Positions 2,800 through 38,216 of a stretch of 42,075 nt of DNA are shown one piece after another. Position 1 is the stretch's first letter. Each line of letters opens with the position of its first letter. A model generated the notes under the pieces. That model ran no database searches and was not told where the DNA came from. It was given only the letters and a program-made list of their open reading frames with translations. A program made the position numbers and the translations under genes. This DNA is from a virus. Location: positions 1 to 42,075 of the IMG/VR virus record IMGVR_UViG_3300038760_000055; one strand, 5' to 3'.

Positions 2800-5700
2800 C
2801 AGACCACCTCCTCAAAGGACAGTGTAGACGCTCGGACCCGCTCAAGAGTGTCCTGCTCCCCGTAGACGTTGACCAGTTTCTGAGTGGTCCCAGTCAACCG
2901 GAAGAGGCCGCCGTTGTTGTGGAAGCTGGTCTCCGTGGAGTTGAGCACCATGCCAACCACTCGGTTGGGACCTCCGAGGTAGCGGTGCAGCGCCGCCACT
3001 TCCTGATGCCAAGAGCGCACCGCGTCCAGGCTGGGCAGTAGCGGGAGCATCACCAGTTTCTGTGGGCCACCGAGAAGTGTGGGCGAGCTGTAGCCGTTGG
3101 CAGCCTTCTCCACCTTGACCGGGGTTCGTGTCCCCCGTGTCCAACCCCAAGCGGCATCTGAGCCGTCGCCAGCGTTCATGGTGACCCGGTTCCCCGCTTG
3201 GACGTAGCCGAGGGAGAAGTACCCGTCTGAAGTGTCCTGAACGGCGACCGTAACGGCCATGTAGCGTAGCCGTGCCTGGGTGACGTTGACCCATGCCTTG
3301 TCCATGAAGACCGTCACGTCTCCGGACTCAGCGGAGAGGTCAACGCCGCCGACATATAGAAAGGTCTCGGAGTTGTCCAAGATCTCGTAGGTGTTGCCGC
3401 TGGTTGCAAAGCGCATGAAGTAGCGGGCACCGGGTTTGCTGGCGTACTCATGTGGTACCAACTCCGCACCGGCTGCGAGGTCCAACCCAGCAGCGCCCAC
3501 TTCGCCACCATCGAGCGCGTAAGTAGCAACCGCCGAGTCTACGTCCACACTGACGGCAGGGGAGCCCCAAGAGTCGGTGCCGTTGAACTCCACCTTGCAT
3601 GTGCGGAAGTTGATCCCGAAGAGTTGCACCTGGTCCAGATGGAAACGGTCATTGGCGCCAGCATCAAAGACCACCCGCCAGAGCGCTGTGTCGTCCGTCG
3701 ATTGGCATTGCTCCGACGGAGACGGGAAGCTCCAGATCGCTTCCTTCGGAAAGGAGGCAACCTGGGAGAGCTCATAGGCGTCACCAATGACGGCGCCTGT
3801 CCCGTAGCCACCAACAGCCAGTCCGGCATCCAGGTACATCGCACCCGAGTTGGAGAGCGCCCGCCCCAAAGCTGCGCTGTCCAGGTTTACGCCGATGGCG
3901 TCTGGCGCCATGCCCAGCCAAAGGAGGCTGATGTCGCTGGTTGCGTTGACACTCCCTCCAAAGCGGATGTCGTTTGTGGAAACGCTCCCGTCCTCAGCGA
4001 TCTCCTGATCTGTAAGCAGGGCCGTCCATGCCGCGGTTTCAGTGTCGGCTCTCCTCCGGTAGAGGATGGTGCATAGTCCGGTGTTGGCCGTGGCTCCGCC
4101 GTCTCGCTCAAAGATGACGATGTACTCGGTTAGGCCGCTAAACTTCAGGGCGCCTGTGTCCGTAGCCAGAACGCCGGACGTGTCATAGGCGGCAATCCCG
4201 CCGGCGCTCAATCTGAGTTCAACCCATTGGGCGGTGCTGCCGCCAGTGCTCAGTTGGACACGCAGACGGCCTCGGGCGTTTGTGGTTGCGCCCCCGTTTG
4301 TTGAACCGACAACACACCGAACCCGGACACCGTTGCCACCGTTGCCCATTGCAGTGACCCAGTTTCCAGGGATGGAGTAGTCGGTGTTGCCGCCTGCTGA
4401 CCCGGCGATGTTCCAACCGTCGGCAGTCATAGACACGGTGCCTCCCGTGCCTGTGGTGGTCTTGGTCCAAGTCAGGTTCGAAGGCTCGGACACAGGCCAA
4501 TAGTGAAAGGTGTAATTGTCTCCCGCGTACTTGCCGTAGACCTGCTCGGAGAAGGAGCGGTTCCATCCCCCAAAGTAGGCGGCCAACACATGACCATCAC
4601 TCACTGCCGCAACCCCTTGCGTGCGACCGAGCACGACCAGGTTCCCGCCCATCATCCCGGCGTTGAGCCCGTCCCATGTGTAGGCGTTTCCAAGGGAGTT
4701 GATGTCCAAGCCGATGTTGGCCGTGGCCTCTTGCGATTGGCCCACGCGCTGCCAGTTGGCGCCGCCATCATCTGAATAGTAGACATAGCTCCACCCGCTT
4801 GTGTCATCGACCACACGAACCGCCCAGAGCTCCCCTTGGTCTCCAGTGGTCAAGCAGCCCTGCTTGTTGTCTACGAGGCTGCTTGGAATGTCGGTCACCT
4901 CAGTCCATAGGGACTCATCATCGACGTTCCCGCCTGGGCTTAGCGACTGCTGGTAGACGACTCCGGTGTTGTCGTCTGCGTGGATGAGGACCACCGTTCC
5001 GTAGACCGTTGTGCGGGGGCGGTAGAGGGTGGTATTCCCTGCCCCTTCCAGCGAGAAGCTGATGCCCTCGGACGTGGAGAGGTAGCAGTCCACCGATGCA
5101 CCGGTAGTCTCTCCGCAAACCAGCACCGCGGAGCCGTTGACCCATTCGGCGTTGATGATGTCGGAGTCGGTGACGAGGTTCGCCGCCGTGCTGCTCAGGT
5201 GGGTCCAGGTGTCCCCGTTGTCATCGCTGTACCAGGCTGCGACGAACCGGTCTGTAGAGCCTCCAGTAAAAGGGCTCTCAACTCGGGCATAGGCAATCAG
5301 GCGCCCCGCGTCGGTGATCAGTAGACCAGGCTGCCCCGTTAGCCCCTTCAGAACGGGGGCTGTGGTGCTGGTGTGAATAGTCACCGTCGACCACGCATCG
5401 AGCCGGTCTGTCTTGTAGAAGAACGTCAGGGTGTCGTTGGTGGTGTCGTCGTAGGCAACAAAGCCCGCTCTCCCGTTGTGGCATGTCCGGAGGTGCGAGG
5501 GCTGGCCGTAGGTGTTGCTCCCGTCGTTGTAGGCGGGCCGGTCCAGAAAGCTGGTGAATGGCCGGTCTACCCATGCCCGCTGCGCAGTGCTTGTTTCTCC
5601 GTTCAGACGCCACGTCAGCCGAGCGCCTGCGGTAGCCGTGGCTGGAGGGATGTAGCCCTCTGGGTTGCCGCCGCTCTCCATCGTCAGAGAGAGCGCGACC

Positions 5701-23350: not shown

Positions 23351-24066
23351 TGGAACAGCCCCGGCTGGCTGCTGCGGTGGTAGAGCACTTCCTTAGACTC
23401 CCCCAGTGTTGACTTGTGATCCATCCTGCCCGTCCATGGCATCCAGTCTGCTCCTACCTGATCCATGGCAATCACTTGCCCCTCCAGGGTGAGGCACCGC
23501 GCGCCAAGTGCTTGATAGTCCACATCTGAGTGCTTGTAGTGGCGTCCTGCTGCGGTCTGGTAGGGCGGGTCCACGAAGTGGGTAGCCTTCCCGCGCGGTG
23601 CGTCGGTGTAGGAGCCGTGGATGATCTGCCAGTGCTTGATCCTTGGCACCCCAGCGGCGATGCGCTCACGGATTGCTTGGCACCACCCCAGCAGCTTCTC
23701 CTCCGACCACTCCCGCACCCACGCGCTCGGAGACTTGCGGGGCTGTGCAGCGCCGTTGCTACACCAGAACCCCGCCAACCAGCGCACCTCCTGTGGGGCG
23801 TGCATGTCGTCCACGGTTCCGCCTTCTGGTATGTCGGGCAGGGCCAAGATCTCCGCTGGCGTGGCTTTGATCAAGTAGTCCCAGATCCCCGCGATGATTG
23901 GGTCCTTGTCAATCAGGATCACATCGTGGTGAGGGTAGCGGCAGGCGTAGCCCGCAGCCCCCGCGAAGTGCTCCACAATGGTCCTACATTCAGGCGCAGG
24001 GTAGCGCGGTGCAGCCCGCCACTTCCCGCCGTAGTACTTCCAGAACGGTCCAATAGGCTTGCTCAC
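23347..24066 (-). CDS. D12-class adenine-N6 DNA methyltransferase (Dam-like)
   Basis: This is a 239-residue protein from GTG 24066 (GTGA overlap with helicase). The N-terminal FWKYYGGKWRAAPRY corresponds to the D12 opening 'KwaGGK..l'. Motif I is EHFAGAAGYACRY, followed by an acidic VILIDKDP for S-adenosylmethionine. The catalytic motif IV is HFVDPPYQT. It would methylate adenine-N6 in phage DNA, often GATC for this class, though the target cannot be read here. It is one of three unrelated methyltransferases in this operon. Confidence 0.85.
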   Translation of the reverse strand: MSKPIGPFWKYYGGKWRAAPRYPAPECRTIVEHFAGAAGYACRYPHHDVILIDKDPIIAGIWDYLIKATPAEILALPDIPEGGTVDDMHAPQEVRWLAGFWCSNGAAQPRKSPSAWVREWSEEKLLGWCQAIRERIAAGVPRIKHWQIIHGSYTDAPRGKATHFVDPPYQTAAGRHYKHSDVDYQALGARCLTLEGQVIAMDQVGADWMPWTGRMDHKSTLGESKEVLYHRSSQPGLFQ

Positions 24067-25355
24067 GTCCACCCCCCGTGCTTCACGTTCCACGGCACGA
24101 AGGCTACCCCGGTTCCGCCGTGCCGGTTGGCCACCACGCCCCACTCCCCGACATCGCCGTGCGTCCCCTTGTCCGGGTTGGGTGCCTCTTTGTGGATGCC
24201 GATGATTAGGCTGGCGTCCTGCTCCCATGCACCGGAGCCCCGAAGGTCCGACATGATGGGGCGGGGGTCCGAGCGCTTCTCCGCTGCTCGGTTGAGCTGG
24301 GCAAGGCAAAGCACCGGGCAGTTGTGCCGGATGCTGATCTCTTTGATGCCTGCGCTGATCTTGGCCATCCCAAGGTTCTCGTTCGTGCCCTCGTACTGCA
24401 TGAGGTGCACATGGTCTACAACGATGAGTTCAGGCGGGCCAAAGCGGCGGGCTGACTCCCTGACCCCGGCTTGCAGGTCCTGGATGCGCAGCGCGGGGCG
24501 TCCGTTGAAAGCCAGGTCCCACTGTCCCACGTTGTGCTCGGCCTCGTAGACGGCGGCCATCTGGCGGTTTGTCAGGTCACCTTTCCGCATCCCCACTGAC
24601 GGCGCTTCCGGTCCAGCCAAGATGCGCCGCGTGAACTGGATCGCGTTCATCTCCATGGAGAACACCGCGACACGACCCCCACGAATGCAGGTGTTGGCAA
24701 TCCACTTCTGAGCTCCGAAGGTCTTGCCCATCTTGGGCCGGGCCATGAGCAGGATTGGGTCGGGCTCGATTGGCCCAATGATCTCGTCAAGCTCTCGGAT
24801 GCCCGAGGACTGCCCCACCTCGCCGCGTTGGTGCTTCTCCCGGCGCTCCTCGATGTCGTTGACGCCCACGGCCAACGCTTCCGCCCAGCTCATCCAGTCC
24901 GTCTCCGTCTGCTGCGGCCCAACTGCCAACCGCTCCCGCAGCCCGTCCCACATCGCCACCACATCCGGCATCGGCGTCCCACCCCGCAGGTGCTTGTCCA
25001 CCGCGGCGACGTGCTCGAGCATCTGACGGCGTTGGTGCGAAGCCTGCAACCTGGCGACCATCGGCCCCACGTCCACCGCTGGCGGCGCTTGCAGTCCCAG
25101 CCAGTACCCCAGCGGCCCCGCGTCCGTGGCGTTGTTCGCTATCGCCTGCATCAGCTCGCGTGTCGTGCAGCTTCCACCCGTCCGCAGGTCCTGCGCCTGA
25201 GCCCACACCCAAGCGTGAGCACCCAAGGGCACCTCCCCGCGCTCGGTCGGCCCGATGAAGTGCGGCGCCCGGAGCTCCGAGTACGGTCCCGGCATGTCGT
25301 GGCCTTGGATGGCCATGGCGAGCAAGGTCACCTCGTCCGTGTGTTGTTGGCTCAT
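24063..25355 (-). CDS. DnaB-type replicative helicase
   Basis: The 430-residue protein starts at ATG 25355 within an ATGA overlap. The N-terminal domain is helical. Walker A is ARPKMGKT (205-212), then a conserved FSMEMN (232-237). Walker B is LIVVDHVHLMQ (~310-320), followed by the family's CLAQLNRAAEKRSDPRPIMSD-type sensor loop and a DASLIIGIHK strand. It is a hexameric 5'-3' helicase of the RecA/DnaB fold and should unwind DNA at the origin lying in the gene upstream. Confidence 0.9.
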   Translation of the reverse strand: MSQQHTDEVTLLAMAIQGHDMPGPYSELRAPHFIGPTERGEVPLGAHAWVWAQAQDLRTGGSCTTRELMQAIANNATDAGPLGYWLGLQAPPAVDVGPMVARLQASHQRRQMLEHVAAVDKHLRGGTPMPDVVAMWDGLRERLAVGPQQTETDWMSWAEALAVGVNDIEERREKHQRGEVGQSSGIRELDEIIGPIEPDPILLMARPKMGKTFGAQKWIANTCIRGGRVAVFSMEMNAIQFTRRILAGPEAPSVGMRKGDLTNRQMAAVYEAEHNVGQWDLAFNGRPALRIQDLQAGVRESARRFGPPELIVVDHVHLMQYEGTNENLGMAKISAGIKEISIRHNCPVLCLAQLNRAAEKRSDPRPIMSDLRGSGAWEQDASLIIGIHKEAPNPDKGTHGDVGEWGVVANRHGGTGVAFVPWNVKHGGWT

Positions 25356-25705
25356 GGCGCGGCATCCAGCGCGGCGACCAGCGCGGCGGCAAATGTAGGG
25401 TAGCGGGCTTGGTCGAATGCGTGGTGGCCGGTGTCTACGCAGAACCCAATGGCCGTCCACTGGATATGCACCATCCCACGGTAGACGGACCGCACCAACG
25501 CCAGCAGACACCCCACCGTCGCCGGGTCCGAGAGGTCGGGAATGGCGTCATGTCGTGGGTGCAATACCTCGACCACCCGCCCATCCAAGACCCAGCGGTC
25601 ACCACCCAAGTAGGTGTTGCCGTCCGTGTCCACCATCCGGGGCATCCACCGCCAGCCCTTGCACGCCACTACGCGGCGGCCCAACTCCATCAGTTCTTCG
25701 TTCAT
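25352..25705 (-). CDS. phage ABA-sandwich-like small protein
   Basis: This is a 117-residue protein. GWRWMPRM, a short strand region, then IPDLSDPATVGCLLALVR and the C-terminal FAAALVAALDAAP follow the arrangement of the small 'ABA sandwich' proteins common in phage early operons. The start is taken at ATG 25705 after AAGGGAGAGGAC; an ATG at 25729 overlapping the upstream stop would add MNNNKGED. The same leader precedes 20351. Function unknown. Confidence 0.6.
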   Translation of the reverse strand: MNEELMELGRRVVACKGWRWMPRMVDTDGNTYLGGDRWVLDGRVVEVLHPRHDAIPDLSDPATVGCLLALVRSVYRGMVHIQWTAIGFCVDTGHHAFDQARYPTFAAALVAALDAAP

Positions 25706-25725: not shown

Positions 25726-26766
25726 TCATAGCGTCGCCCTTGCAGCTTCCGCCCACTTGCCGAACTGCCACGCATTGGCAGCCCGCATCCTCGCCCAAAC
25801 TTCGGTCCGGTCAATCCCCGTTGCCGTCTCCAGCAGCCCCTTGAACTGCTCCGCCACCTCCTCCGGCTCCCCTTCTACCGCGTGGACAAGGTAGGCGTGC
25901 TTCTTGACCAGCCCCTCCAGCCCCGCGACCATCTCCCGGACCCGTGGCAGCGTGCCCCCTCCAGCGTCCTGCCAATCCAGCGCAGCCACCGTGCGGGCCA
26001 GCCGGTTGGTCGGGTCGTTCGCCTTGCCACCCAGCGCTTGCCCCAACGGGTCCGAGGTGGCACGCCAGAAGCTGTCCGGCCCGAGGTAGACCCACTCCGC
26101 ATAGGTGCGCAGGACCTCCAAGGGCTCCCCGTACTGAGCACCCTTGACTTCTCCGAGGTAGCGCTTGACCCGTACCAGCATCGCCGCCTTTGCTTTTCCA
26201 GATGAGCAGTAGACGCCACGTGGCTTGGAGCCGGTCGCGGCTTGGTGGTGCTCGGTCCGAATCTCGCGGAGGATGTCCAAGCCCTTCTCGGCTTCTGTCT
26301 TCTCCACGGGTGCTGGCTTGTCCTGACCTGGAAAGGGAATGCTGCCGTCAGCCTTTGGCTGGCGTGCTGGGGTTCTCTCTTCTCTCTCTTCTCTTCTACT
26401 CTCTAAAGAAGAACGCGCGTGAGTCCCACTGCTGTCCCGCTCCTGTCCCAAGTCCGTCCCAGCGGCGACTAATTGTGCAGGTTCTACCTTGGTTGGGGTG
26501 TCCCGCTCCTGTCCCACAAGTGTCCCACTGCTGTCCCAAATCCGTCCCACGCCTTCTTTGACCTTACGGGCCGCTGTAGAGCGAGGCCAGCCCCAGCGTT
26601 TGGCCAAGTCGCGGACGCTGAGATCGTCCAGCCGCCCGGAAGCGGTCAGGATGGCGAGGTCCATGTCCACCCACAAGACGGGCGCGCGGTTGTCCAGTGT
26701 CCAGCCAACAAGGCTCGCGCGGTCAAGCCACTCGGAGCACCGGACCTTAATAAATGGAAGGCTCAC
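25726..26766 (-). CDS. replication initiator-like protein with embedded origin
   Basis: This is a 346-residue protein starting at GTG 26766 (GTGA overlap with a small upstream frame). Residues ~1-75 contain a helix-turn-helix (LSVRDLAKRWGWPRSTAARKVKE). Residues ~75-150 are low-complexity, with GQERD and DSSGT repeated, encoded by the 11-bp GTCCC array. The C-terminal part (LDILREIRTEHHQAATGS and onwards) is helical and may bind the helicase. The layout, a DNA-binding N-terminus, an origin inside the gene and helicase immediately downstream, parallels lambda O/P. The direct family is not recognised, so initiator function is inferred. Confidence 0.7.
   Translation of the reverse strand: MSLPFIKVRCSEWLDRASLVGWTLDNRAPVLWVDMDLAILTASGRLDDLSVRDLAKRWGWPRSTAARKVKEGVGRIWDSSGTLVGQERDTPTKVEPAQLVAAGTDLGQERDSSGTHARSSLESRREEREERTPARQPKADGSIPFPGQDKPAPVEKTEAEKGLDILREIRTEHHQAATGSKPRGVYCSSGKAKAAMLVRVKRYLGEVKGAQYGEPLEVLRTYAEWVYLGPDSFWRATSDPLGQALGGKANDPTNRLARTVAALDWQDAGGGTLPRVREMVAGLEGLVKKHAYLVHAVEGEPEEVAEQFKGLLETATGIDRTEVWARMRAANAWQFGKWAEAARATL
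26373..26554. other. probable replication origin: nine 11-bp phased GTCCC iterons beside a pyrimidine tract
   Basis: GTCCC occurs at 26423, 26434, 26445 and 26456, then at 26500, 26511, 26522, 26533 and 26544. Each step is exactly 11 bp, and the gap between blocks is 44 bp, so all nine are in one register. Units are GTCCCNNNNNN, most reading GTCCCA; GTCCCGCTCCT and GTCCCACTGCT each occur in both blocks. Since 11 is not a multiple of three, the period is a DNA property and not a protein repeat. At 26373-26408 one strand is nearly all pyrimidine (TTCTCTCTTCTCTCTC...), an easily melted tract as in lambda ori. The whole array lies inside the initiator-like gene. Confidence 0.75.
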
Positions 26767-29325: not shown

Positions 29326-29612
29326 GGCGTCACCTCCACCAGCACTTCGGCCAGTGCCTCGAGCGCAGCCACAGCCACGTCCTTTGGCCCTACCATCTCG
29401 TCCCGGTGAGGGCTCAGGCAGCGACGCACGGCTTGAGTGGCGGCCATCACGCGGGAGTCGGCGGGGAGTTGGCCGGGTAGAGTTCGGGCGCGGTCGGTGT
29501 ACTGCTTAGCCACGTCGGCGTAGGCCCATCGGGCGATCTGGTCGTCGGGGACTCCTCCAATGTTGGCGGCCATGATGGCGAAGCGCTCGGCGAGGTCTTG
29601 GGTGGGGTTCAT
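29322..29612 (-). CDS. small helical hypothetical protein
   Basis: This is a 96-residue protein starting at ATG 29612 (ATGA overlap with queC, ribosome site CAGGACACACC). It is helical throughout (NPTQDLAERFAIMAANIGG and so on). It lies between queC and the MT-A70-like gene. No family recognised. Confidence 0.6.
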   Translation of the reverse strand: MNPTQDLAERFAIMAANIGGVPDDQIARWAYADVAKQYTDRARTLPGQLPADSRVMAATQAVRRCLSPHRDEMVGPKDVAVAALEALAEVLVEVTP

Positions 29613-30190
29613 GGTGTGTCCTGTAGGCAAGAGTTGCACGTCCCACACGGGGCGCCCGAGTCCGGTTGGTAGCATGAGGAGCACAACTCCAACGGGGCGC
29701 CGATGCTGTTCCCCAGCGCGCGCACATCGGAACGGGACAGGCCGAGCAACGGAGCCCGTACACGCACCCCCCATGCTTGGGCCAGCCGGTCCATAGCCTC
29801 CACCCATCCGGGGCGGCAGTCGGGGTAATCGCTGGCATCCTCAGCCTGAGCACCCATCCACACCTCGTCAAAGCCACGAGCGGCAGCCATCGACACGGCA
29901 ATGGAGACAAAGACCTGATTGCGAGCTGGGACAACACGTGGTCCAGGTTCTCCCGCTCCGGTGTCCATGGCGTCCAAGCCAAAGACCGTGGGATGTACCT
30001 CAGCGGCGGGCACCTCAAATCCGGCAGCCTCAAAGTGGCGGCGGATCTCCACATGGCTGCGGTACTCGGCGGCTGCGGCAGGGTGTGGGTAGCGATACCA
30101 AAGGGCAACACCCAGGCGGCCCTCCACAATGGCTTTAGTCAAGAGCACAGTGGAGTCAACCCCACCACTAAACAGAACGAGAACGGACAT
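29609..30190 (-). CDS. queC: 7-cyano-7-deazaguanine synthase QueC
   Basis: This 193-residue enzyme makes preQ0 from 7-carboxy-7-deazaguanine, ATP and ammonia. The N-terminal PP-loop LFSGGVDST (residues 6-14) binds ATP. YPDCRPGWVEAM matches the family's middle motif. The C-terminal CSSC...CGTCNSC quartet holds zinc. ATG 30190 with GGGAGGA is preferred over a longer frame. There is no glutamine-amidotransferase domain, so the product is probably preQ0 itself. It overlaps the DpdA-like gene by 23 bases, pointing to one modification pathway for DNA. Confidence 0.92.
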   Translation of the reverse strand: MSVLVLFSGGVDSTVLLTKAIVEGRLGVALWYRYPHPAAAAEYRSHVEIRRHFEAAGFEVPAAEVHPTVFGLDAMDTGAGEPGPRVVPARNQVFVSIAVSMAAARGFDEVWMGAQAEDASDYPDCRPGWVEAMDRLAQAWGVRVRAPLLGLSRSDVRALGNSIGAPLELCSSCYQPDSGAPCGTCNSCLQDTP

Positions 30191-30845
30191 TAGTTCCTCC
30201 CTTTGAGAATAAGTTGGTTTGGCCGGTTGGCGTGCGTCGTGCAGCATTCAATCGGGGGATATTGACGGCCCACTTTGTCGCTGAGGTCCCATCGAAACTA
30301 TGGACGCCATGCTCTTGGCAGTAGCGGATCCGTCGAACAGTGTTCACGCGCAGGACATGGAGATGGCAGCCGGTCTCCCTGGACAGGCGGGCCCACACGG
30401 GCAGGCTGCCCAGTTTCCACGGAGTAGAGCCCCCAACAGCAATCCCAACACCGGCCCCCAGCAGTCCGCGCACGTCAGCCGCACTCATTCCATCCTGGAC
30501 AGCAATCAGGGCGCGCCCAAAAGCCCGGACACCAGCCAACCAGGAAACGCTAAACGCCAACGACTTCAGCCCACCCGCCACAATGTCAGGGCAGACAATC
30601 CAGTCAGCACCCGCGCCCAGCTGGGCGAGGGCATCTCGGAATAGTCCCCCGTCGAAGGGTTGGCCCTTCGTGAAGGCGGTCCACGCCCCATTATCCAAGG
30701 CGTATGGCGCTGGCGCATGGTCGGCCCACGTTGGCGACGGGTGACGGTAGCGTTTGAGACTTTCCGGTGTGGCCAGCAACCGCCATCCAGCACCCTCTAA
30801 GGCGTCCAGATTGCGCTTTGTGCCCGTGCGGCTGGCATATGCCAT
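30168..30845 (-). CDS. dpdA: DpdA-like DNA transglycosylase (tRNA-guanine transglycosylase relative)
   Basis: This is a 225-residue protein from ATG 30845. The pattern APYALDNGAWTAF, then ADWIVCPDIVAGG, then ALIAVQDGMSAADV, then GIAVGGSTPWKL, then LHVLRVNTVRRIR and HSFDGTSATKW follows phage DpdA proteins. In these, aspartates in a TGT-type barrel swap guanine in DNA for a 7-deazaguanine. The QueC gene next to it supplies preQ0, so dPreQ0 in DNA is the expected product. The zinc motif of bacterial TGT is absent, as usual in short DpdA forms. The start could also be GTG 30848. Confidence 0.8.
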   Translation of the reverse strand: MAYASRTGTKRNLDALEGAGWRLLATPESLKRYRHPSPTWADHAPAPYALDNGAWTAFTKGQPFDGGLFRDALAQLGAGADWIVCPDIVAGGLKSLAFSVSWLAGVRAFGRALIAVQDGMSAADVRGLLGAGVGIAVGGSTPWKLGSLPVWARLSRETGCHLHVLRVNTVRRIRYCQEHGVHSFDGTSATKWAVNIPRLNAARRTPTGQTNLFSKGGTNVRSRSV

Positions 30846-36734: not shown

Positions 36735-38216
36735 CTACCGGCTTCGGCTACCCAGTGGTGCGCGTACTTCGTTGAACCAGGCTTCACCGCTCACGTCATC
36801 CTCGCGGCTGAGCTCTTCCAAGCCATCGACCTGCACCGTCAGGAACTGCTCCCCGTGGTTGGTACCGTTGTCGTAGTACCGGAGAGACTTGGAGTAGCCC
36901 GCCCCGTCCGGACAGATGAACGCCTCTTGGCGCGAGGTGGGGTCAGCGGTGTTGACGACCCAGGCGCAAGCGTAGAGCTCCGTGCGCCCCATCTGCGGCT
37001 CTCCCATGAGCAACGGCACGGACAGGTCAACGCCATCCACGCCAGCCGGAACAGGCACCCCCGCCAGTCCTGCGAGGGTTGGGCCCACGTCCATACCGGA
37101 GAAGAGACCGGGGTAGACGAATGGCTCGGAGTCTCCCTTGACCGCCGGCCACTTGAAGGCCACGGGGATGCGGATCGCTTCTTCGCGTAGCCCCGTCTTG
37201 AACCATAACCCCCGGTCCCCGGCGTACTCGCCATGGTCGCCCATCACGCAGAGCAGGGTGTCATCGGTCACCAACTCATCCACGATGGTTTGCAGCAGGC
37301 TCTCCACGTAGGCAATCGTGCCCATGTACCGGGCGATGAAGAGACGGTAGTGCTCGTCCGTGGCGCTGCTCATGCCGCGCAGGGTGAAGAGGTAGTCATC
37401 CACCACGTCAACCCCTACGGCCTCGCGGGGGTGCATCAGGGCCAAGTCCACATCAGCAGGGTCTACCAGGTCATAGAAGCGCTGCGGCACGTTGAATGGG
37501 TAGTGCGGCTTCAAGAGGGAGATGTGAGCCAACACGGGGGTGCCTGCGGCCCGTTGCGCGGTCACCCAGTCCACAGCCGTGTCCACCATCACCGAGTCCT
37601 GACACACGTTGTCATCGGTGCGCACCTTGCTCCGCATCCCTCGTCCGGTATAGCCCTCCATGGTGGTGAATAGAGGGTCATCCGTCGAGTCGTAGTAGTT
37701 GCCAGCGAATCCAGCCCCACCCCCTGCGGACACGGCCGCGCTCTGGACTGCTCCCCAGTCGGAACTCTGCGCGGAGAGCAGGCGGTCAAAGCCGTAGTTC
37801 CCATCCTCCTCGGTGCCCATGGTGTGCATCTTGCCGAAGCTGCCGGTGGCATACCCAGCGGCTTGGAACCATGCCGGGAAGCACTCCGTGGCTGGCTCTA
37901 CCAGCGTGATCCCGTTGTTGAACTGGCCGTGATGCTGCACCGAGAGAGCCGTCATCATCGACGCGCGAGCTGGCGCGCACGACGGGAAGGTGCAGTAGCC
38001 TTGTGTCTTGCTCTCCATGAGCTCGGCAAGCAGCGGGATCTCTATGCCGAGGTCCTGCATGGCTTCAAGAAGTGGCCCCTCCAGAAAGCGGCAGGACTGC
38101 TCGTCCAGGACAACCCAGATCACGTCCGGGCGTCCGGCTGCTTGGCGCGCTGCGAGGCGTTCACCTGCGGTGTTGAAGGCTACGGTGAGGGCTGCGTCTA
38201 CGGCGGTTCTAATCAT
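36735..38216 (-). CDS. sulfatase (arylsulfatase family) encoded by the phage
   Basis: The 493-residue protein has all main sulfatase marks: PDVIWVVLDEQ with Asp38, the formylglycine site CAPAR (Cys80 to Arg84) within PSCAPARASMMTAL, GKMH (128-131), PHYPF (237-241), GDHGE (326-330) and FKTGLREEAIRIP around Lys340. Cys80 would be oxidised to formylglycine by a host enzyme. There is no clear signal peptide; the N-terminal helix is only mildly hydrophobic. GGGAG lies seven bases before the ATG. Sulfatases remove sulfate esters from glycans or small molecules. In a phage it could unmask a sulfated surface polymer, be a virion enzyme, or serve host sulfur metabolism. Its own promoter region lies upstream. 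Confidence 0.88.
   Translation of the reverse strand: MIRTAVDAALTVAFNTAGERLAARQAAGRPDVIWVVLDEQSCRFLEGPLLEAMQDLGIEIPLLAELMESKTQGYCTFPSCAPARASMMTALSVQHHGQFNNGITLVEPATECFPAWFQAAGYATGSFGKMHTMGTEEDGNYGFDRLLSAQSSDWGAVQSAAVSAGGGAGFAGNYYDSTDDPLFTTMEGYTGRGMRSKVRTDDNVCQDSVMVDTAVDWVTAQRAAGTPVLAHISLLKPHYPFNVPQRFYDLVDPADVDLALMHPREAVGVDVVDDYLFTLRGMSSATDEHYRLFIARYMGTIAYVESLLQTIVDELVTDDTLLCVMGDHGEYAGDRGLWFKTGLREEAIRIPVAFKWPAVKGDSEPFVYPGLFSGMDVGPTLAGLAGVPVPAGVDGVDLSVPLLMGEPQMGRTELYACAWVVNTADPTSRQEAFICPDGAGYSKSLRYYDNGTNHGEQFLTVQVDGLEELSREDDVSGEAWFNEVRAPLGSRSR

Follow-up and report, generated by a model that had tools for sequence, protein, structure and literature searches.

The question raised by this locus is where replication of an uncharacterised phage begins, and whether a short repeat lying inside its initiator gene is the answer. 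The window (the whole stretch of 42,075 nucleotides analysed, from IMG/VR record IMGVR_UViG_3300038760_000055) ends in an 87-bp direct (terminal) repeat, and the map is therefore probably complete. We consider the repeat array to be, with a probability of roughly 0.83, the replication origin of the phage, embedded in the initiator gene and made of the initiator's own putative binding sites. The features concerned are, in the order in which the initiator gene is read:

25726..26766, minus strand: initiator gene, 346 aa, with an N-terminal HTH, a disordered repeat-coded linker and a helical C-terminal domain (AlphaFold2)
26551..26583, minus strand: codons of the predicted recognition helix, residues 62-72, RSTAARKVKEG; R62, S63 and A66 align with the residues that track the repeat core
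26500..26548, minus strand: iteron block 1, beside the HTH codons, five GGGAC at 11 bp; kept in relatives L007 and L008
26461..26499, minus strand: spacer between the blocks, 44 bp from site to site (26456 to 26500); kept in L007, L008 and L006
26423..26460, minus strand: iteron block 2, four GGGAC at 11 bp (GTCCC starts 26423, 26434, 26445 and 26456)
26400..26419, minus strand: block following the array, coding strand CGCGCGTTCTTCTTTAGAGA; same in L007 and L008, similar in L006 despite differing iterons
26373..26397, plus strand: pyrimidine-only tract of 25 nt, candidate unwinding element
24063..25511, minus strand: DnaB-like replicative helicase gene, downstream of the initiator gene (PHROG 19, E 1.2e-47; Pfam DnaB_C, E 4.9e-46)

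Nine GTCCC sites on the plus strand, corresponding to GGGAC on the coding (minus) strand, were found in blocks of four and five with exact 11-bp steps, the sites of block 1 starting at 26500, 26511, 26522, 26533 and 26544. This list of positions confirms the initial annotation, which had described nine GTCCC iterons in an 11-bp register, with a 44-bp gap, inside the initiator gene. The iteron consensus sequence is TGGGAC(A/G)(G/C)NNG, a direct repeat of 11 bp, and no inverted repeats were found in the window array. GTCCC-N6-GTCCC occurs seven times in the window, always in the array (0.19 expected; 0 of 100 shuffles reached seven). No other GTCCC pair at 11 bp, and hence no second, oriR-like array, was found anywhere in the window. 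With 10.5 bp per turn, the helical phase shifts by about 17 degrees with every step of 11 bp, and neighbouring sites are nearly in phase. The first and last sites are 121 bp or about 11.5 turns apart, which places them roughly on opposite faces of the DNA. The proposal that all sites face the same side of the helix therefore holds for neighbours only.

The GGGAC sites start 3 nucleotides past the codons of the predicted recognition helix, and the array lies between the parts of the gene encoding the two protein domains. AlphaFold2 predicted the HTH helices at residues 51-58 and 62-72 with a mean pLDDT of about 91, while residues 77-136, coded by the array and its flank, had a pLDDT below 50 and are predicted to be disordered. 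Neither Pfam nor PHROGs gave a match above threshold for the window protein, no PDB sequence matched it, and its AlphaFold2 model gave no significant fold match. Prophage relatives of the initiator were sought in two bacterial classes and none was found, an empty answer that shows little.

Because the array DNA also codes for protein, we used synonymous-codon shuffles in which the protein was held fixed. None of 10,000 shuffles of the window gene reached the seven pairs at 11 bp or the nine in-phase sites (on average 0.69 pairs, at most 6). When viral contigs were searched with the protein as query, three relatives were returned, L006, L007 and L008. Of these, L007 and L008 have the same five and four sites with the same 44-bp gap as the window, and their own protein-fixed shuffles never matched the observed pairs or in-phase sites. 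All 45 core bases are identical across the window, L007 and L008. Third codon positions are identical at 15 of 15 places in the cores compared to 24 of 72 upstream, and the codons of conserved residues at 12 of 12 compared to 14 of 51. The conservation of the cores in these three genes is due to selection on DNA. The claim of the initial annotation that the array is selected as DNA is thus upheld by the shuffles and by the fixed third positions. It had also named relatives that keep the amino acids and lose the phasing as an outcome that would count against it, and the opposite was found, with L007 and L008 keeping the register.

The L006 protein is 74% identical overall to that of the window; outside the N-terminal part much of it is nearly the same, whereas the HTH differs. 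Its cores are GGACC, GAACC or GAACA at positions 136, 147, 158 and 168 and then at 212 and 223, i.e., with steps of 11, 11 and 10 bp, then the 44-bp gap also present in the window, and then 11 bp. In L006, reader and sites were swapped together with the layout unchanged. A DnaA box (TTTTCCACA) was found at 187-195 of L006, in the spacer between its two iteron blocks; the DnaA box consensus TTWTNCACA is absent from the window, L007 and L008.

No purine or pyrimidine run in the window exceeds the pyrimidine tract at 26373-26397 in length. The best 30-bp A+T stretch near the array starts at 26378 with 63% A+T compared to a mean of 36.5%; it is among the top 0.1% of 30-bp stretches in the window, and the A+T enrichment beside the array is modest. 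Genes for a RusA-like resolvase and a methyltransferase are located upstream of the initiator gene, and no helicase-loader gene was identified near it. The minimum of the cumulative GC skew was found at 26567, or at 26199 with the array masked, within a broad plateau over 26-27 kb; the C-richness of the array itself shifts the exact position. The skew check called for by the initial annotation therefore gives a minimum at 26.2-26.6 kb, at the array, on a broad plateau. Elsewhere in the window a QueC-like gene (29609-30247, minus strand) points to possible DNA modification, and a sulfatase-like gene (36735-38216, minus strand) is an unusual metabolic gene for a phage.

The initial annotation had taken lambda as its model, but the closest proven system was found to be SPP1 oriL with its initiator G38P. 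In SPP1, the direct repeats of oriL, located within gene 38, and those of oriR are bound by gp38; both have an unwinding element beside them, and replication from oriL has been reconstituted with purified proteins (PMC6316719). Within SPP1 gene 38 we found four GACA(C/G) sites in succession, spaced by 11 bp, and A+T-rich DNA after them. An exact-word shuffle test of this gene was not significant (134 of 500), since one of the four sites departs from the exact word that the other three have in common. Gene 38 was matched in a search with a member of the related initiator family as query, and hhalign aligned G38P to that family at 99.7% (E 1.6e-26). For the window family against the related initiators hhalign gave 95.3% (E 2e-8), a match at the profile level only, with the alignment partly in repeat-coded residues. 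SPP1 oriL and the window share 11-bp direct repeats in the gene of an HTH initiator, located just after the HTH part, with DNA richer in A+T after the repeats (only modestly so in the window) and a DnaB-type helicase gene downstream. They differ in the core, which is GACA(C/G) at four sites in SPP1 and GGGAC at nine sites (five and four) in the window. SPP1 has a helicase-loader gene and the second origin oriR, neither of which was found in the window, and the window protein is without the Phg_2220_C domain. In the SPP1-like phage 049ML003 (44.8-kb genome) the only GACA(C/G) triples at 11 bp are those in the equivalent of gene 38 (35919). The only other GACA(C/G) pair at 11 bp (4633) is intergenic and about 13.5 kb away round the circle, and the published oriR of SPP1 is intergenic and about 13 kb from oriL. 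By position only, the pair at 4633 may represent oriR.

The iterons of lambda, bound by O dimers, are nearly perfect inverted repeats of 19 bp (PMC5043065). The lambda origin resembles the window in being located inside the initiator gene with A+T-richer DNA adjoining, and in helicase recruitment, which is proposed for the window. The window repeats, in contrast, are short, direct and non-palindromic and recur every 11 bp, and the window protein had no PHROG or Pfam match above threshold to a lambda O-like family. The pyrimidine tract pointed out in the initial annotation is present, and the comparison with lambda that accompanied it stands only in part. In the iteron plasmids P1, RK2 and R6K the initiator binds to direct repeats that follow the helical period of the DNA (PMC5043065). 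Such helically phased repeats are shared with the window, as is initiator binding, which is proposed for the window. The initiator families of P1, RK2 and R6K differ from that of the window. In these plasmids the rep gene does not usually contain the iterons, which span about two helical turns.

The TGGGACR repeat is not restricted to initiator genes. In viral contigs, three copies at 11 bp were found in 69 stretches. Several of these follow directly on the HTH codons of replication genes in phages, which belong to different families (DnaD-like loaders, replication initiation proteins); the others were intergenic or next to integrases. Three copies at control spacings were found in 81 stretches at 10 bp, in at least 120 at 12 bp and in 11 at 13 bp. 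The control arrays were largely intergenic repeats, coding repeats (such as AAWD, which make up most of the 12-bp set) or arrays in a primase-like gene; some 12-bp arrays were located in HTH initiators. Since the 10- and 12-bp controls yielded more stretches, the bare counts do not single out 11 bp; only gene context does. A genome-wide scan for four GGGAC copies gave a mixed set with many repeats in G+C-rich genomes.

Several of the arrays encountered in these scans deserve mention in their own right. In L320, L324, L325, L328, L336, L345 and similar loci, TTGGGACAAC repeats with 10-bp steps are located within a primase-like gene, on the opposite strand and near its 3' end; the gene product is about 810 aa (PHROG 906, DNA polymerase/primase), and this is possibly another origin-like array. 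TGGGACATT repeats at 13-bp steps in related prophage contigs (L398-L408) resemble a transposon end. Phage proteins with long AAWD, AARD or VGRR runs at 12-bp steps were found in L198-L277 (PHROG 18326 and 8332 in 16 of 64 scanned). Bacterial regulator-like genes with repeats such as DQVGTKSGLSR carry GGGAC at 11 bp (L151, L164, L165, L167, L171 and L190). In five of these six loci, which were picked for carrying the pattern, at most 1 in 1000 synonymous shuffles reached the observed pairs; the array frame of L151 is ambiguous.

The regulator-like genes bear on the question of whether the array is instead an operator, at which the HTH protein binds its own gene to repress or time the replication operon, with the true origin elsewhere. 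Sites within the gene of the HTH protein itself are in keeping with autoregulation, and 11-bp GGGAC arrays do occur in those unrelated genes. A proven member of the family, however, uses the equivalent array as an origin (PMC6316719), the helicase gene follows, and the skew turns at the array. We therefore regard a purely regulatory array as unlikely, and the roles of origin and operator can coexist. Much less probable still are two further explanations. One is that the array is a by-product of protein-level selection on a repeated linker peptide (11-residue units such as WDSSGT-VGQERD). Since 33 bp make 11 codons, the coded peptide is indeed quasi-repetitive, but the core occurs in three reading frames, third positions are invariant within the cores alone, synonymous shuffles destroy the array, and the coded linker is predicted to be disordered. 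We rejected this explanation on the basis of the shuffles and the third-position conservation. A relic of a mobile element is about equally improbable. TGGGACA-type repeats are also present in apparent transposon ends and beside integrase genes, many 10- and 13-bp TGGGACR arrays are intergenic, and some 11-bp arrays neighbour integrase genes, but the window array is located within an intact, conserved gene, its register is kept in relatives, and no transposase was noticed beside it. The earlier suggestion of a likely replication origin inside the initiator gene thus appears well supported by the downstream helicase gene, the skew minimum and the precedent of SPP1 oriL.

Related initiators were gathered by protein similarity and not by the repeat; GGGAC may nevertheless be over-represented among them, because GGGAC arrays supplied most of the seeds for the first search. 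An 11- or 12-bp array, called when it beat synonymous shuffles at 2%, was found in 108 of 132 distinct related initiator genes. The core fits GNNNC in 83 genes: GGGAC in 31, GACGC in 18, GAGAC in 10, GATAC in 5, GCGAC in 4, GGAAC in 4, and others. Steps of 11 bp (232) and 12 bp (136) were both common, and exact 11-bp spacing was therefore rejected as universal; the register that the initial annotation sought in related phages is not a rule of the wider family. An ACATC array with 11-bp spacing (6 pairs) is present in orf46 of Staphylococcus phage PVL, the annotation of which is DnaD-like loader, while relatives from phages SL25, 1.189.B and A403 were without an array. No description of 11-bp arrays of this kind was found in the openly accessible literature.

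Across the 83 GNNNC genes, the mutual information between alignment columns and the core word peaked at positions 34, 35 and 38 of the recognition helix and in the wing. The wing signal is confounded, because the wing codons hold the first repeats, while the helix codons are located upstream of nearly all arrays. Outside the wing, columns 34, 35 and 38 carried the highest information on the core, also at matched overall identity. Among pairs with 40-50% domain identity (outside helix and wing), the core was shared by 63 of 67 when the three residues were alike and by 40 of 910 when none was. With neighbours at 50% identity or more left out, the three residues predicted the core in 56 of 83 genes and the rest of the domain in 19 of 83; always guessing GGGAC would give 37%. 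K-S-D was found with GGGAC (17 genes), E-(A/P/S)-R with GACGC (16 genes), and K-K-R with GGACC (2 genes), and each of the five GATAC genes has Q at position 38. The triples of the window (R-S-A) and of L034 (R-S-D) are similar to those of the GGGAC class. That of L006 (R-G-R) comes closest to the GGACC class, and GGACC is among the L006 cores, a fit made after the fact. In a pre-specified held-out test, L651 was the only gene with an array among the prophage genes fetched (triple VGR, core GGCAC); the triple is absent from the training set, and V and R are common to two of three GGCAC genes. The rule rests on cross-validation within the set, because the held-out set had too few new genes. We find it fairly probable that three helix residues (34, 35 and 38; R62, S63 and A66 here) largely determine the three central bases of a G-NNN-C core that recurs every 11-12 bp. 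Initiators with their own arrays would then be a natural, readable record of HTH-DNA recognition, with the window array as one entry.

From the array, its selection as DNA, its conserved layout, its place between two protein domains, the coupling of core and helix and the gene neighbourhood, we infer the following course of events at the proposed origin. The recognition helix of the HTH initiator would read the GGGAC core, and initiator molecules would line up, about one per helical turn and conceivably as a filament, on the blocks of five and four sites, both lying in the codons of the initiator's own disordered linker. The two blocks would build a nucleoprotein complex that strains and opens the adjacent A+T-richer tract with its purine/pyrimidine asymmetry. 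The C-terminal domain would then bring in the DnaB-like helicase encoded nearby for loading.

An origin inside an initiator gene is already known, the nearest being SPP1 oriL, and of greater interest is the recognition rule that appears to hold across related initiators. Altogether, the likely origin of an uncharacterised phage is narrowed down to about 200 bp, and an initiator lacking a family annotation is connected with a class amenable to biochemistry. Every such gene seems to record both the helix that reads the DNA and the sequence that is read, and one could thereby derive binding rules and phage origins from metagenomic data and test them at the bench.
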